Source: Streptomyces sp. NBC_00523 (lineage in GTDB: Bacteria > Actinomycetota > Actinomycetes > Streptomycetales > Streptomycetaceae). From it: DNA of 64,000 bases. Positions 21,781 to 32,265 of the stretch are shown piece after piece. The position numbers and the translations under genes are program-made. The stretch spans positions 868,001 to 932,000 of the forward strand of contig NZ_CP107836.1 in the NCBI RefSeq assembly GCF_036346615.1, given 5' to 3'. The notes beneath the pieces are model-generated. The model searched no databases. It saw only the letters and a list, made by a program, of their open reading frames with translations, and was not told the DNA's origin. Positions within the stretch are counted from its first letter, which is position 1; the number at the start of each line of letters is the position of its first letter.

Positions 21781-22449
21781 TCACTCCGCCAGCACGATCG
21801 TGTGCGGTGTCGGCGTGAGCTGCGCCCGATAGCGGCGGATGCCCCAGCTACGGTGCTCCAGCTCCGCCGCGACCAGCACCTCCGCCGTGTTCATACAGTC
21901 GGGCACGAGCTCCACCAACGCGGCCACCGGGTGATCACCGACCAGCGGGAATCCTTTGAGTCGTCGGAACTCCCACTGCGGGTTCGGCTGGGAAGCTCCG
22001 TGGCCCCGGACGATCCATTCCTCCCTCGCCGGTCCGGATCCTGACGGCTTCTCCACCCCTACATCCAGCACTCCAGTCGTGACCGTGAAGCTCATGCCGG
22101 TTCCGAGGCCGGGGACCGGGTGGGTACGCTCGCCAGGGTCGATCAGGCGCGCGATCGGCTGTGCCGCACGCTCCGGTGTCGACAGTGCGACACCCAGGGA
22201 GGCATGGCGGAATACGCCTCTGCTCTCCGGTCTCTCGGGGCGAAACGAGCACACCATGAGCAGTTGCCGAAACTTTCGGTCGGGGGTGGCACTCAGATAG
22301 GAGAGCCAGCCGGCCGGCGCGCCCGCATGGTCGGCGGGCAGTAGGTCCCAGCCGAAGGTGAGCCTGCCACGCAGCGGTGTCCCATCGGCTGGGCTGCCGA
22401 GCGTACGCTCCGGCAGGAGTTCGACGTCGTGCAGCCGAATCTCGGTCAT
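21781..22449 (-). CDS. 222-aa protein coupled to CHAT gene
   Basis: Function not recognised. The protein is soluble, with no signal peptide or membrane helix. It starts MTEIRLHDVELLPERTLGS and seems beta-rich with alternating hydrophobic strands (RLTFGWDLL, MSFTVTTGVLDVGV, AALVELVP) and paired aromatic/arginine motifs (REEWIVRGHG, WEFRRLKGF). Its ATG overlaps the TGA of the CHAT protein gene (ATGA), so the two are translated together and probably act together, for example as protease and substrate, inhibitor or sensor. It is not recognisably a gasdermin, a peptidase or a toxin of a known fold. Base composition is visibly less GC-rich than the flanking core genes. Confidence 0.8.
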   Translation of the reverse strand: MTEIRLHDVELLPERTLGSPADGTPLRGRLTFGWDLLPADHAGAPAGWLSYLSATPDRKFRQLLMVCSFRPERPESRGVFRHASLGVALSTPERAAQPIARLIDPGERTHPVPGLGTGMSFTVTTGVLDVGVEKPSGSGPAREEWIVRGHGASQPNPQWEFRRLKGFPLVGDHPVAALVELVPDCMNTAEVLVAAELEHRSWGIRRYRAQLTPTPHTIVLAE

Positions 22450-25400
22450 GGGGTGGCTCCCTTGTTCCTGCCGTGCACATAAGTGAACGCTCCCCAGTCA
22501 CGGTACGGGGCGTATGCGGCACGCGTAGCGAGTTGGGCACCGCGGAAGGCATGCTCCGGGTCAGTGCCGCGCGCGACTTCTTGATGCAGGTGGTGGTAGA
22601 AGTACGTGGCCGGTTCCGAGCGCACGGGCCACAGGCAGCCGACGACGGCCTGCGCTCCAGCGGTGATCAGCGCCGAAGGGATGCCACGAACGTTGTCACC
22701 GCGGTCGAATCGGCCGAGCGCCGACTCACAAGCGGCGAGCGTGACAAGTCGGACCCCGCGCAGGTCGATGTCCAAGAAGTCGTAAGCGAATACGCGGCCG
22801 TCGTCGTCGCCGTCCGGCGTGAGATAGAGGCAGTGCATCCACGGCGCATCCTCGTCCAGTGTCCCGTGTGCGGCGATGTGGACAACGTCCGCCACGGACA
22901 TCTCCGCACGCAGCCTGTCGCGAGTGGCCGCACGCCCGGTGAGGGCTGGAGCGCCTACCGCCTCGGCAACCTTCCGCGCATGCCCCTCCAGCGCCGGTTC
23001 GGCTTGCAGACCGAAGGGAACACCGCCGGCAGCGGAGGCCAGCACAACGGTGCGGCCCTCACGCGCAGGTACCTCGGCGGGTGCCAGGGCTTCGAGGCCG
23101 GCGATCGAGGTGACCGTCCAGTCGTCGGCGATCAGACGGCCGCCCCTGCGGCACAGCGGTAGGGGCAGGTAGTGCAGAGCGCCGTGCGGCCAGGCCAAGA
23201 TGCGGTCCTTGCCCTGGGCGCGCCAGTTGTCCCACAGTTCGCCGCCACCGAGCGGCAGGCCGGCCGACTCCAGCAGCCGGCTGCCCTCCGGTGTCACGTC
23301 GCCGAACAGCGGGTCGCGTTCGATCTCCGTCCGGATCGCCTCGATGCGGTCCGCATCCGGGTGCCGGTCGTCGTTCTCGTCCGCGCCCTCGCCGAGGTGC
23401 ACCACGAGCTCCCGGCCCTGCCTGGTGACCGCGAGCAGCACGGACGCGCCCTTCACCGCCGCGGGCAGGAACCACGTCAGCAGCACCGTTCGATCGTCCA
23501 GCAGATCATGGGCCTTGGCCCAGATGCGCTGGTCGTCGATGAGCGCTGTCGAACGCCGACGCAGCTCGTCATCGATGAACGACGAGACGCGCCACCGCAG
23601 ATTCCGAGCGATCTGCGTGTTGTCGTGGCCGCCAGGACGATGATCGGCGTCCACCGCGTTCAGCAGGTTCAGCAAGGCTCCTCCTGCAGCGGTGGGCACC
23701 TCCCGGTCGCGCAACTTGCCGAGGTAGTGCTGGATGTACCCGGGCAGCACGAGTGGACCTCCGATGCGCCACCACGCGCCCAGTTCCGAGCCCTTGCCCG
23801 CTTGCTGCAGGCCGAGTAACAGCCCGATCGGCAGCGTCTCGCTCTCCGCGGTGAGCTGCCAGACAGCCGAGTGCACAAGGTCTCGCAGCATCGCGCCGAG
23901 TTCGGGCGCGCCGATGGTGTCGATGTTCGGCGCGTCCACGATGATCGCGTGCAACGCGTTCCTGAGTTCGTCGCCGCGGAGGTTGCCCAGCTGCTGCACG
24001 AGCGGCACCAGGCTCGCCCGGGCCAATTCCTCGAAGCCGAGCGAGGCGTAGGAGAGCGCCGCATACGTGTAGTAGCCCCATGGGAACGGGACAGGGCTGG
24101 AGACCGGCTCGCCCGCCTGCGCCGACTGGTAGTACAGATCTGCCGTGAGCAGCCGGACCTCTTCGTTCCGGGCGTCGCCCGCCTGGCGCAGGAGGGTGAG
24201 CCCCCATGCCGGCTGCCCCCGATCGCGGGCGTGTGCGGCCGCATGCAACAGAGCCGCAGATCGCTGCATCGGTGTCCAGAAATCCGGTATGGACACCGGT
24301 AGATCCTGGTGGGGGCCTGGGCATTCGCTTGGGTCGTCGGGTAACACGTGGAGCCTGGCCTCGATCAGTTGCCTGCGATGGGCAGAGGCCCACCGGATGT
24401 CGAGCTGCCCGGCCCAGTCCAACACGGTTCGCAGCAGCCGTCGGTCGGCTCGCTCCCGGGCCAGGTTGACGCCTTGGCTGATCGCCTTCGCGGTGACCGT
24501 GCTCCCGTGGGCGACGAGGAAATCGGCCGACGGCGTCCCGAATACCCCTGTGAGCAGACCGTCGGTCGTCTCTGGGGGCACCCCGTCCATCGTCCTGACG
24601 AGGAACAGCGCGAGGTCCGGCTCCTCGTCGGCGGAAAAGTCGTGCAATGCCGAGAGCGCAGCGCGAGCAGCGTCACGGTGGGCTCCCTCCGCGTCCGCCA
24701 GGATCTGCGCCAGTATCGCCAGCAGCCGGGGCCTCCTCACCCCACCATCCAGCTCCAGCGCACGCACCACCAGGTGTCCCGCTTCTGCCACCAGCCGATA
24801 GGACTCCTTCTGGAAGGGTTCCTCTTCGGTGAACCACGTGCGGTACAGGTCCGCGGTCAGCCGAGCGGACCATGTGGTCAGCAGCGGCTCACGAGCATAG
24901 TCGTCGTCGGCCGAGTCCTCCTGTCCCCTGATGGCCATCCGTAACCGAGCGGCAGCCAGCAGCGCGGCTTCCAGGTCGGCGGTGTCGCTCAGTTCGCCGA
25001 CCAGCCGAGCCGCCAAGGCTTCGGACTCCTCGAACACCCCGCGGTCGCACCGGTCCGCCACCAGTTGGACGCCCGCCTCGATGGTCTGGAACGCCGCGGC
25101 CCGCCATGCAGCTTGCAGGGCGCAGGCGTCGGCGACCTCAGCGACCAGTCGCCAGTAGACGTACATGAACTCCACCAGGCCGCGGTGGTCGAGGAACTCG
25201 TCCCGGAACAGCAGATCCACCATCGCCCCGGTGGACATCGCGCCGTGCTCCGCCAGGGCCCGCCGCATCTCCTCCACTTCGCGCGCCCGCCGCTTCGCCT
25301 CGTCCAGCGACATGATTCGGTCGGATACGTACTGAGCCAGCTCCATGAGCACGCCGACCGGGTCGATCACGAAGGTGACCGTCGGCTTGCCGTCCGCCTC

Positions 25401-25871
25401 GCAGTTCGGCTTGCTGTTCGACTCACCGAAGCGCACACGGCCGGCGCACACCTTCCCTCGCCGTGTTTCGAAGATCAACGCGCCGAGGGGATCGTCCGTG
25501 GCTGGCAGCACGTGGGACACGACCAGCAGGACTGAGCCCGCAGCGTCCGCCGCCTCCCGCCACCCCGCCGGCCGCTCCACGTCGAGGTCGTGCACGAAGA
25601 GCGCTCCGTCGGGATCTCGTACGGACAGCACACCTTCCTCGTCCTGCGTGACATACCACCGGAGAGCGAGGGGGCGGCTGAACGGCAATTCGTCCAGTGA
25701 AGGGAGCACCTGGAGGCCCCGCGCGTACGCGCGGGTGAACAGGCTGCCTCCTGACCCGCCACCCGTGAAGAACGGGCTGATACCGGCCAGGCCGACGGCC
25801 AGACCGGCATGCCGGACACCCTCCACCTCGGCGAGGAACGCCCACCCGGTGGCCTCGCGTGACAGTTTCAC
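22446..25871 (-). CDS. Large CHAT-domain (caspase-like) protease protein
   Basis: An 1141-residue protein. The C-terminal 330 or so residues form a CHAT peptidase domain with the dyad intact: His in VVHIAAHGTLD (about 1002) and Cys in TLAACESALG (about 1048). An NVRGIPSALITAGAQAVVGC segment and a WPVRSEPATYFYHHLH motif follow, as usual for the family. The preceding 900 residues are long and largely helical with no enzyme I recognise; the first 150 are different and may be a separate sensor. GTG 25871 follows AAGGGGGA; upstream ATGs at 25898 and 25994 lack ribosome sites. Three in-frame TTA codons (23817-23819, 24342-24344, 24942-24944) make translation depend on the bldA tRNA. It is the first gene of a two-gene unit. 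CHAT proteins often act in immunity or programmed death. Confidence 0.87.
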   Translation of the reverse strand: MKLSREATGWAFLAEVEGVRHAGLAVGLAGISPFFTGGGSGGSLFTRAYARGLQVLPSLDELPFSRPLALRWYVTQDEEGVLSVRDPDGALFVHDLDVERPAGWREAADAAGSVLLVVSHVLPATDDPLGALIFETRRGKVCAGRVRFGESNSKPNCEADGKPTVTFVIDPVGVLMELAQYVSDRIMSLDEAKRRAREVEEMRRALAEHGAMSTGAMVDLLFRDEFLDHRGLVEFMYVYWRLVAEVADACALQAAWRAAAFQTIEAGVQLVADRCDRGVFEESEALAARLVGELSDTADLEAALLAAARLRMAIRGQEDSADDDYAREPLLTTWSARLTADLYRTWFTEEEPFQKESYRLVAEAGHLVVRALELDGGVRRPRLLAILAQILADAEGAHRDAARAALSALHDFSADEEPDLALFLVRTMDGVPPETTDGLLTGVFGTPSADFLVAHGSTVTAKAISQGVNLARERADRRLLRTVLDWAGQLDIRWASAHRRQLIEARLHVLPDDPSECPGPHQDLPVSIPDFWTPMQRSAALLHAAAHARDRGQPAWGLTLLRQAGDARNEEVRLLTADLYYQSAQAGEPVSSPVPFPWGYYTYAALSYASLGFEELARASLVPLVQQLGNLRGDELRNALHAIIVDAPNIDTIGAPELGAMLRDLVHSAVWQLTAESETLPIGLLLGLQQAGKGSELGAWWRIGGPLVLPGYIQHYLGKLRDREVPTAAGGALLNLLNAVDADHRPGGHDNTQIARNLRWRVSSFIDDELRRRSTALIDDQRIWAKAHDLLDDRTVLLTWFLPAAVKGASVLLAVTRQGRELVVHLGEGADENDDRHPDADRIEAIRTEIERDPLFGDVTPEGSRLLESAGLPLGGGELWDNWRAQGKDRILAWPHGALHYLPLPLCRRGGRLIADDWTVTSIAGLEALAPAEVPAREGRTVVLASAAGGVPFGLQAEPALEGHARKVAEAVGAPALTGRAATRDRLRAEMSVADVVHIAAHGTLDEDAPWMHCLYLTPDGDDDGRVFAYDFLDIDLRGVRLVTLAACESALGRFDRGDNVRGIPSALITAGAQAVVGCLWPVRSEPATYFYHHLHQEVARGTDPEHAFRGAQLATRAAYAPYRDWGAFTYVHGRNKGATP

Positions 25872-26234
25872 GCCATCCCCCTTCGCGCTGCCGGCCATCG
25901 ACAGGATCAACGGTGGCACAGACAACGGCCGAACCAGCCCGTGACCGAGACCGGGACGATGATCTGGGCTGAACTCAGATACGACTTGGCACATCGTCAG
26001 CGTTCAAGACATGAAGCATGTGCATCTTCTTGACGGTTCACCGTTGTCACTCAACACTGCCTTGACGGACCCAGCACCTTGCTTGTCCGTAGATTGAGAG
26101 CGTTTTCAAGAGGTTCATTCGAAGGCCCGCAGAGTTGGCAAGGCGATTCCTGCAGGGTGTCGAGACCATCTGCACCCTGACCTCCGCGTTGATCCGGTGT
26201 TCACTTCACGAAACCAGGTGAAAGGACTCCCCCC
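25872..26234. other. Divergent intergenic region, CHAT / GH55-like genes
   Basis: About 360 bp separate the two divergent genes, noticeably AT-richer than coding DNA. Besides the LacI-type palindrome at 26094-26109 no other clear element is seen. A TTGACG at 26062 could be a -35 for the rightward gene, but no matching -10 at normal spacing is present. Confidence 0.5.
26094..26109. promoter_or_regulatory. LacI-type operator before GH55-like gene
   Basis: TTGAGAGCGTTTTCAA is a near-palindrome with the central CG typical of LacI-family operators, about 125 bp before the start of the secreted beta-glucanase-like gene. The regulator is not in the window. Confidence 0.55.
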
Positions 26235-28743: not shown

Positions 28744-29826
28744 TCAATCGCCTGGAGCGCTGGCACGACGCAAGGGGTACTGCCGGCGTGCCGCAGCAGC
28801 GAGATCTTCCAGCAGCACATCGGCCACCAGCTCCTCGACCACGGCGATGTCGTGCTCCGTCATGGCTTCGGCCAGCTCGGGATCCCACGGTGCTCCGGTG
28901 ATGCGCCCCGGTCGAGGACCGTGCGCGTTGCGGACGATCGCGGATCGGTGGTCCGCCGCCGTCATGCGCCAGGGGTACGCCCCTGTTCTCTCGATGACGT
29001 ACGCGGCAATGCGGATACCTTCGCCGTCGAAGTCACCGTGGTAGCGGAGAGCTGCACCTCGGTCCACGAGTAGGCGCAGGGCGCAGTCCGCCGGCGATGA
29101 CGGTGGCGGACAGCTCGTCGTCGGCGACGCCGGCGCGGGACCACAGGGCGCGTCGTTCCGCTGCCGACTGCGGCGGTGCGATGTCGTACAGAGTCGCCAG
29201 GGCACGCAGGACGAGGGTGGAGGCGGGTGCGCCGTCGTCGAGAGCGTGGGCGTGGCCGTTCAGGAGTCGGGCGGCGAAGACGGGCAGGGGTTCGGCCTGG
29301 CTCGGTAGTTCGGCGAGCACCTTGAGCGTGTCGGTGAGGAGCGTACGGGTACGCTCCGCCGAGCCGCCACCCATCCTGCGGCTCGGCAGGACGCAGCCCA
29401 GTCGGCGAGCACCGGCTGCGCCCGTACCGTGTCGTGACCAGCCAGCCAGGCCAACAGACCGGCGCGTTCGTCCTCCTGGCGGCGGCGTTCACCGGCTCTG
29501 TCGCCGAGCGGGCCGATGAGTTCGGCGACGATCTCTCGTACGGTGCGGCCGGTGAGCTCGGTGACGGCCTCCTCCAGGCGAGCCAGGGCGACGGGGGGCT
29601 GGGGGTCCGGCAGGCGGTCCAGGTCGAGGAGGTCCGCGAGGGCTTCGCGCTGGGTCTCGTCCAGCAGTGCGAGGCGTACGCGTGTGATGGGGCTGCCGGA
29701 GGGGAGACGGTCGTGGCCCGTCTGGCAGACGGGATGCAGTTCGGGACGACGAAGGGTCGTGTCGCCCGACGCGAAGTGCTCCCGAGAGGTCGTCCCGCCG
29801 GACACGGAGTGGTCTCGCAAGGTCAC
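28744..29826 (-). pseudogene. Broken TIGR02679/DUF2399-family gene
   Basis: Three same-strand fragments in different frames follow one another. The N-terminal part (29826 to about 29400) reads DETQREALADLLDLDRLP and TELTGRTVREIVAELIGPLG. The middle (29374 to about 29100) reads PVFAARLLNGHAHALDDGAP and PPQSAAERRALWSRAGVADD. The C-terminal DUF2399 part (about 29090 to 28744) reads LRYHGDFDGEGIRIAAYVI. The last join is out of frame and skips a stretch normally present in the family, so there is a deletion as well as frameshifts. Intact relatives sit in a four-gene cluster (TIGR02677-TIGR02680) related to Wadjet-type plasmid defence; no other member is recognisable here. The family call is from remembered sequence patterns. 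Confidence 0.7.
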
Positions 29827-30420: not shown

Positions 30421-32265
30421 GTGCGTGAACTGCCCATGTTCGAACGTCTATACCCCGATGTCCAGCTGACGTCCCCTTCGGAGAGGTTCGTGCTGCGGTG
30501 CGACTCGGAGGGTGTCGCCGTGGTCATGGACTCCGATCGCGGGCAGGTCGTCTGGCGGGCGGGCGCAGCTGGGCAGCTGTTGCTCGGACACGGGTACGAG
30601 GTCGTCGTCGAGGGCGGGGAGGACGACGGCACGGTGTGGCGCTCCGGTTTCGCCGCGTCCGGGGCGCAGTACCTCATCCTCACGGATGCCGGAGAGCTGG
30701 AGCTCCTGGACCGCACACACGTCCGCCTGGGCAACATACGCACCGGGCTCACCCACCCTGTGCCGCTCGGAGATGCGGCGCCCGCGGCTGCCATCACCCG
30801 GGACGCGTATCTGGTCAAGGAAGGGAAGACGCGGCGGACAGTGGCCCGCGAGCAGGACGGATGGCTGCGGGTCTGCGAGTACGGGAAGGGCGGGGGTATG
30901 AGCTACGCGTTGACCCGTCCGCTGGTCGACTGGTTCGAACAGGAAGACACCGTGCTCACCTGGCGCCGGCACCTGGCGGGTGGTTCGAAAGCAAAAAGCC
31001 TGATGCTGTGCCTGGTCGACTCCGCCGGGACCGTCCTGTGGCACGAGGGCACCCAACGCCCGCATGGACCAGTTCCCCTGGGAGAGCCATACGCGTACGG
31101 TGGACCCGCGCTGGAGGTGGGAGGGCGCCTGCGGAACCAGTCCCTGACGTCTCCCGCAGGTACGCACACACTGGCTCACCAGGGCAACGGCGACCTGACT
31201 CTGTACTGCCACACCGAGCGCCGCGCCGTGTGGTCGACCGGCACGGGTTGGGTGGACGGGGGATGGGCCGAGCTCTCCGAGGATGGTGTTCTCTCGGTCC
31301 GCAACACCCATGGTGTCTTGGTGTGGAGTTCCGGCCCGTCAGGTTCTGGGGCTCGTCGGCTCGTGGTCGGTGATGACGGCCGTGCCGAACTGCGTGACGT
31401 GGACGGCCGGTCGGTATGGTCCACAGGCACACACACGGCGTGCCATGGCCCCACAGCCGATGCCCCGCGGGGTGCCGTGCTGCACCGAGGACAGACGCTC
31501 GGACGGCACTCCCTCACCTCCCCCGACGGAAGCACCGTGCTCGGACACTGGGACGAACACCGCCTCGTGCTGTTCGGCGCCGACCAGACCTGGCTCTGGT
31601 GCGCGCACCTCGGCGAAGCGGCCGAGCCCGGACTGCGGCTCGACGAGGACGGCATGCTGCGCGTTCTGGGCGACGACCGCCCACCGCTGGGCGGACCGGC
31701 TGACGAACTGCGAGTCGAGGAGGGCGGAGTGGTCCTGTGCCGTGCCGACGGCACCGTCGTCTGGCGCGACGGCGAGGCGGTGGCCGAGCCGGTCGCCGCC
31801 GCGAACCCGCCCGCACGAGGAGGGCTCATGAAAAGTCTGCCGGACACGGACGAGACCCTGCTGATCCGCACCGACTTCTCCGAACCGACCGCTTGGCAAG
31901 CCCTGCTCACTGCCATCATGACACCGAGCCAGGACGGCTTTCTCGCGAACGTCCACCCAGTGGATGATCTCGCCTATCGCGATCTGACGGCCCAACAGAT
32001 CCTGGCGGCGGCAAACGAGCTGGACACCGATCTTCTCATCGTGGCCGACAAAATCGCCCTGGCGGCGCCGGAAATGCCGCTGCTGGCCCTCCTGCTCTCC
32101 GATGAGGACGACGAACGCGGGGAGGGCGAGGCCAGGCAGGAGCACGGCCAACTCCGAGTCGCAGCCACAGAACTGTGGTCGGTCGAAAACAATATCTCCC
32201 TCGCCAACATGGATTGGGAGGACTTCGAGAACGCCACCGACAACGGTGTCTTCCGGGGCTTCTGA
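30421..32265 (+). CDS. Bulb-lectin repeat protein with DUF6924-like C-terminus
   Basis: A 614-residue protein without signal peptide or membrane segment. The first 470 residues hold about three bulb-type (mannose-binding) lectin-like units, recognised by repeated SLTSPxG and VWSTGT-type strands (SLTSPAGTHTLAHQGNGDLT, AVWSTGTGW, SLTSPDGSTVLGHWDEHRLV, GRSVWSTGTH). The exact sugar-contact QxDxNxVxY motif is not intact in them. The C-terminal 140 residues (LPDTDETLLIRTDFSEPTAW onward, ending in ANMDWEDFENATDNGVFRGF) match the DUF6924 pattern as I recall it. GTG 30421 is the start. It is the last intact gene of the accessory segment. Function is unknown; a cytoplasmic carbohydrate-recognition or conflict-related role is possible. 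Confidence 0.75.
   Translation: MRELPMFERLYPDVQLTSPSERFVLRCDSEGVAVVMDSDRGQVVWRAGAAGQLLLGHGYEVVVEGGEDDGTVWRSGFAASGAQYLILTDAGELELLDRTHVRLGNIRTGLTHPVPLGDAAPAAAITRDAYLVKEGKTRRTVAREQDGWLRVCEYGKGGGMSYALTRPLVDWFEQEDTVLTWRRHLAGGSKAKSLMLCLVDSAGTVLWHEGTQRPHGPVPLGEPYAYGGPALEVGGRLRNQSLTSPAGTHTLAHQGNGDLTLYCHTERRAVWSTGTGWVDGGWAELSEDGVLSVRNTHGVLVWSSGPSGSGARRLVVGDDGRAELRDVDGRSVWSTGTHTACHGPTADAPRGAVLHRGQTLGRHSLTSPDGSTVLGHWDEHRLVLFGADQTWLWCAHLGEAAEPGLRLDEDGMLRVLGDDRPPLGGPADELRVEEGGVVLCRADGTVVWRDGEAVAEPVAAANPPARGGLMKSLPDTDETLLIRTDFSEPTAWQALLTAIMTPSQDGFLANVHPVDDLAYRDLTAQQILAAANELDTDLLIVADKIALAAPEMPLLALLLSDEDDERGEGEARQEHGQLRVAATELWSVENNISLANMDWEDFENATDNGVFRGF

Follow-up and report, generated by a model that had tools for sequence, protein, structure and literature searches.

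Two adjoining genes lie on the minus strand of the locus described here, within a window of 64,000 nucleotides (the whole stretch of Streptomyces sp. NBC_00523 DNA that was analysed): a gene for a CHAT protease at 22446-25871, assigned from a Pfam match and an alignment of relatives, and a gene for a 222-residue partner protein at 21781-22449, both of them in agreement with the first-pass annotation. The longest open CHAT frame extends over 22446-25994 and would code for 1182 residues. In most relatives, the alignment begins near residue 41 of this form, their consensus starts with MRLSRxxTGWAFLAEV, fitting a GTG codon at 25871, and AAGGGGGA is found directly upstream of that codon; for these reasons, the GTG start at 25871 is preferred over the one at 25994, resulting in a protein of 1141 residues, in whose numbering the features below are given.

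The Pfam search of the CHAT protein returned a match to PF12770 (E 2.7e-37; score 129 bits, cut-off 24) that covers residues 886-1131 (22479-23216, minus strand). Within it, the motifs HIAAHG and ACES, together with the alignments, locate His1002 (codon 22866-22868, minus strand) and Cys1048 (codon 22728-22730, minus strand), which are presumed to be the catalytic dyad from knowledge of the CHAT family. These residues, placed by the first-pass annotation at the same positions, are invariant in all 47 aligned CHAT proteins and in 22 of 22 same-locus units (the window and 21 other loci). The window protein belongs to the CHAT protease family PF12770, and its proteolytic activity is predicted. 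A profile search of the CHAT protein minus its CHAT domain against the PDB found no usable relative (the best, a designed protein, reached E 0.03), and seven relatives showed no credible Pfam domain outside the CHAT domain. Specifically, residues 1-205 (25257-25871, minus strand), which vary more than the partner does and have no Pfam or PDB relative, may function as a sensor.

The CHAT stop and the partner start share an ATGA overlap at 22446-22449 (minus strand), read directly from the sequence and corresponding to the fusion of the two genes originally described. Moreover, the CHAT gene contains three TTA codons on the minus strand, at residues 310 (24942-24944), 510 (24342-24344), and 685 (23817-23819), and the partner gene contains none.

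The partner protein and its predicted fold

The partner had at first been left unassigned, and for sequence comparison this description holds: its sequence and profile retrieved nothing usable from Pfam, PADLOC, NCBIfam, PHROGs, or the PDB sequences, the best profile match to the PDB reached E 0.28, and none of 40 partner-family members matched the Leukocidin Pfam family at E 10 within HMMER's filters. Conversely, AlphaFold2 models of the window partner (model 1) and of a relative of about 30% identity (model 2) now suggest an assignment, since the best structural matches of both are pore formers of the alpha-hemolysin/leukocidin type. The structural scores of model 1 are middling, and other beta sandwiches match it equally well, and pore formers account for all of the best 50 structural matches of model 2. 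On the basis of these models, the partner is predicted to have the cap/rim sandwich fold of alpha-hemolysin and leukocidin, at middling scores. No gasdermin appeared among the best 50 rows of each structure search with the two models, the viral structure library gave no match at E 1e-3, and a known housekeeping fold did not emerge in the searches run.

The partner nevertheless differs from alpha-hemolysin and leukocidin in several respects: it has no sequence match to them, it lacks an export signal (0/117 partner homologues in a hydrophobicity test), it is encoded together with a protease, and it is 222 residues long against about 250-300 in the chains matched. The lipid site of bacterial gasdermins (bGSDM) is an N-terminal Cys, whereas no Cys occurs within the first five residues of any of the 117 partner homologues.

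Both models contain a mid-chain stretch of low confidence with a conserved pattern that is amphipathic on average; in the window partner it corresponds to residues 110-141 (22027-22122, minus strand), a candidate membrane hairpin. Just before this weak stretch, residues 100-112 (22114-22152, minus strand) hold the conserved ARLIDPGERTHPV, a candidate region for the cut by CHAT. By analogy with the loop cut of Csx30 and the cleavage of gasdermins, the strongest candidate for the cut or the hairpin is the segment 100-141, beginning with the conserved ARLIDPGERT(R/H)PV.

Distribution, divergence, and neighbourhood of the unit

The co-occurrence of the two genes in other genomes, anticipated at first pass, was found in an order-level sample of 391 genomes, 388 of which have a completeness of 90% or more and a contamination of 5% or less. 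The partner query matched 25 genomes: a full-length class-1 partner is present in 13, class-1 remnants occur in three (G339, G160, G243), class-2 partners of 32-35% identity in four (G277, G219, G266, G088), and a more distant partner in one (G293); the matches in G179, G052, G174, and G081 are weak, contain in-frame stops, and were discarded. With CHAT residues 1-761 as the query (E 1e-10), 16 genomes matched, namely the 13 with a full-length class-1 partner and three that carry remnants (G160, G175, G331). Since the same 13 genomes are retrieved by both queries, near-full-length class-1 CHAT and full-length class-1 partner coincide in 13 of 13, counting one genome with a frame break near the CHAT N-terminus (G216) and one with CHAT truncated at the contig end (G318). 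The genome of the window itself has one partner match, recovered at the same site with the class-2 query, and two CHAT matches. Class-2 partners and the G293 partner also adjoin CHAT coding sequence, and partners just about 30% identical are still located next to CHAT genes. A full-length class-1 CHAT without a partner was not seen in the 391 order genomes and 38 named loci, as would be expected of a substrate and of an inhibitor alike. As judged from these comparisons, the two genes form a nearly obligate unit of scattered occurrence (13/391 genomes).

In the class-level sample, the partner query matched 6 of 394 genomes, two of them in the genus of the window (one being its own genome). Among the other four, the G707 homologue has CHAT adjacent, the distant partner of G560 overlaps a 1096-residue CHAT gene and has an overlapping 116-residue ORF after it, the G436 match is weak and lies inside another ORF, and in G481 (L099) the partner homologue, related by profile comparison at E 5.6e-21, precedes genes for EAD1-CHAT and Clp_N-EAD1 proteins, in this order. 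Partner searches of named proteins gave 68 and 143 matches; those listed (120 of the 143) are all actinobacterial and mostly from Streptomyces, with further relatives in Kitasatospora, Nonomuraea, Dactylosporangium, Pseudofrankia, Nocardia, and Allokutzneria.

The 38 loci from named genomes are in part from the same strains and hence not independent. Twenty-three of them (L028-L050) combine a CHAT frame bearing the His motif with a class-1 partner behind it; 22 of these frames match the Cys motif pattern, and in the remaining L036 the Cys was found by alignment. This group includes an internal CHAT deletion (L030) and a frame break (L046). In eight loci (L056-L061, L063, L064), the partner after the CHAT frame is of class 2; all eight frames carry the His motif, and seven also carry the Cys motif. 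The other seven (L051-L055, L062, L065) are decayed or rearranged: in L062 a class-2 partner frame survives, but nothing there matches the window CHAT, and in L053 a 371-residue CHAT frame with both motifs, having lost its N-terminal part, adjoins a broken partner. The ATGA-type one-base overlap is kept in 22/23 class-1 loci, the exception being L048 with a 19-nt gap, and in 7/8 class-2 loci when the nearest start codon is taken as the partner start. TTA codons, which amount to 17 in 90,485 codons and occur in 15/199 long ORFs across the window and 37 related loci, are present in 10/23 class-1 and 5/8 class-2 CHAT frames. The bldA dependence claimed at first pass is thus plausible for the window copy with its three TTA codons, but it is not a fixed trait of the unit, because these codons are neither universal nor fixed in place.

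Divergence is distributed unevenly along the pair. Specifically, in the 231 pairwise comparisons of 22 same-locus units (the window and 21 loci, with L030 and L046 excluded for their deletion and frame break), the partner is better conserved than residues 1-205 of the CHAT protein in 229 pairs and better than residues 206-780 in 215, as opposed to just 71 for the CHAT region 781-1141. In class-2 CHAT proteins, the match to the window protein begins at residues 192 to 879 of the 1182-residue form, depending on the locus. Such a pattern would be expected if a variable sensor were attached to a constant pair of protease and effector.

Among neighbouring ORFs chosen by a coding-signature filter, no third gene family recurs beside the unit in three or more loci, except mainly for gene runs in S. 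griseus-like loci. Among 20 neighbour ORFs from 13 loci, there are two clear PADLOC matches (PDC-S03, PDC-S53) and one marginal match (E 1e-3), and 10 other ORFs of the window gave none. On a plasmid of Streptomyces sp. NBC_01724, CHAT and partner adjoin AbiEi/AbiEii genes; this AbiE setting and the EAD1-CHAT/Clp_N-EAD1 setting of G481 are conflict-system contexts. Co-occurrence, gene overlap, scatter, decayed copies, and the conflict-system neighbours of two distant relatives all lend good support, at the sequence level, to the protease-partner unit put forward by the first-pass annotation. Phage records contain no match, and viral contigs contain one partner match, at a contig end. The DNA of the two flanking genes yielded no usable empty site in 61 genomes, own genome included: the flanking PALP gene has no close copy outside its own genome, and the other flanking gene has many paralogues. 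The window is located 0.87-0.93 Mb into a 7.24-Mb contig, and its genes flanking the unit look metabolic or secreted.

Proposed mechanism, rival explanations, and meaning

The unit shares traits with several described systems. Caspase-like proteases cut neighbouring bacterial gasdermins after Leu or Arg, and the gasdermin operons described in PMC9612521, like the unit of the window, place a gene for a protease of the caspase superfamily (CHAT included) next to one for a small cytosolic protein armed by a cut, a trait that for the window is predicted; in contrast to gasdermin, the modelled fold of the window partner is of the hemolysin type. In type III-E CRISPR, as reported in PMC10028731, Csx29 cuts Csx30, which is encoded beside it, within a flexible loop, and Csx30 frees a sigma factor. 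The likeness to this Craspase (Csx29-Csx30) consists of a CHAT protease with a neighbour-encoded target, a role predicted for the window partner, whereas the window CHAT scores 14.4 bits against a Csx29 model cut-off of 300, and no search that was run revealed a likeness of the partner to Csx30. Borvo (BovA), an antiphage protein with a CHAT domain (PMC10952713), matches the window CHAT protein in PADLOC at E 3.4e-11, but the match joins BovA 547-667 of 711, the CHAT part alone, to window residues 1035-1158 of 1182, and the unit of the window has two genes. Lastly, a pairing of effectors through EAD1 has been described (PMC7159879), and the distant partner of G481 shares its locus with such genes; conversely, Pfam detects no EAD in the window unit, and the partner is not named in the portions of PMC7159879 covered here. 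Both the cutting of a neighbour-encoded target by a CHAT protease and the triggering of pores by a protease are thus known kinds of system, while the combination of a CHAT protease with a hemolysin-type fold appears new: searches of an open-access library, a scope outside which most subscription papers fall, listed no title or abstract on a CHAT protease paired with a hemolysin-fold protein.

By analogy with these systems and from the structural models, the preferred reading, whose prospects are about even, is that CHAT would cut the partner and thereby arm it as a pore in the cell's own membrane from the inside, in the manner of animal gasdermins but with a different fold. Specifically, an invader or a stress would be sensed through the N-terminal and middle regions of the CHAT protein, where conservation is lower. 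Cleavage of the partner by the His1002/Cys1048 dyad would follow, with residues 100-141 or their immediate vicinity as the most plausible site. The cleaved partner would then form oligomers, and the stretch 100-141, as fold and pattern suggest, may enter the cytoplasmic membrane from the inner side in the form of a beta hairpin, so that cell death or growth stop would precede the spread of the invader.

The main rival is that the partner serves as an inhibitor or chaperone of a toxic CHAT protease held until a trigger, in a toxin-antitoxin-like arrangement. It is unlikely: the tight coupling, the full-length CHAT never found without a partner in 13/13 genomes, and the partner frame of L062 lacking a CHAT match would all suit such a role, but the antitoxin-like gene is downstream of the protease gene, both models resemble pore formers and not protease inhibitors among the best 50 rows per search, and in L053, where the partner is broken, the shortened CHAT frame retains both motifs. 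A role of the partner as a signalling or adaptor protein that is cleaved, comparable to Csx30, is quite improbable as well; the hemolysin likeness would here reflect a shared beta-sandwich arrangement without pore function, as the middling scores and ties of model 1 and the Csx30 precedent (PMC10028731) would allow, whereas no recurrent regulator gene adjoins the unit outside clade synteny and the best 50 rows of model 2 are pore formers without exception.

Only a slim chance is given to a developmental cell-death device under bldA that would act in aerial growth and sporulation and not against invaders, possibly through the same pore mechanism. The three TTA codons of the window CHAT gene are consistent with it, as is the presence of TTA in 15/31 class-1 and class-2 CHAT frames versus 15/199 surrounding long ORFs, a contrast overstated by the mostly shorter length of the latter; however, the unit is scattered (13/391 genomes), one copy is plasmid-borne, and 16/31 CHAT frames have no TTA codon.

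The reading of the partner as a CHAT-armed pore leads to a broader and more tentative proposal, whose prospects fall somewhat short of even, namely that bacteria invented protease-triggered pore death twice, with the gasdermins and with a portable actinomycete pair of CHAT and a cytosolic hemolysin-fold effector, served by interchangeable protease sensors (class 1, class 2, EAD1-CHAT). If true, the pore fold of secreted toxins would double as a suicide effector inside the cell, controlled by a caspase-like protease, providing a second solution to the gasdermin task and making the hemolysin fold an immune suicide effector beyond a secreted weapon. Moreover, the unit would offer a compact two-gene system for studying how CHAT proteases switch on, and at least 129 partner protein clusters without a named function would become a testable family.

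Genes surrounding the unit

In the window, a 153-aa ORF (28744-29205) that matches DUF2399 in its C-terminal part only and a DUF6924 protein (30421-32265) both lie within a few kb of the unit. At two other loci, the genes directly after the unit (L049, 10842-13565; L038, 10826-11476) match the PADLOC candidate families PDC-S53 and PDC-S03. CHAT is matched at one more place in the own genome, though more weakly (29.7 bits; L067, G000:C1:1971702-1972241), and no partner match was found at that place.

Additional genes beside distant partner relatives

In genome G481, the unit takes a three-gene form, in which a partner homologue is followed by an EAD1-CHAT gene and then by a Clp_N-EAD1 gene (L099, 4520-7513; G481:C2:28000-40000), and sensor and protease may be joined through EAD1. 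In G560, the end of the distant partner gene, at its stop, overlaps with a 116-aa ORF (L100, 6811-7161) that has no match in Pfam and may represent a third component.

Copies on a plasmid and a putative viral contig, and decayed copies

CHAT and partner genes are also found on the 790-kb plasmid NZ_CP109170.1, typed as mobilizable, where they adjoin AbiEi/AbiEii genes and an IS5 transposase (L098, 1-7672). A partner homologue (59% to P0160) lies at the extreme edge of a contig of 55.8 kb that was filed as viral (L091, 43-699); the contig stops short of the position at which CHAT would be expected. Among the 38 loci of the named-genome set, seven (L051-L055, L062, and L065) carry the unit in a decayed or rearranged state, a pattern that might be expected of a dispensable, costly module.
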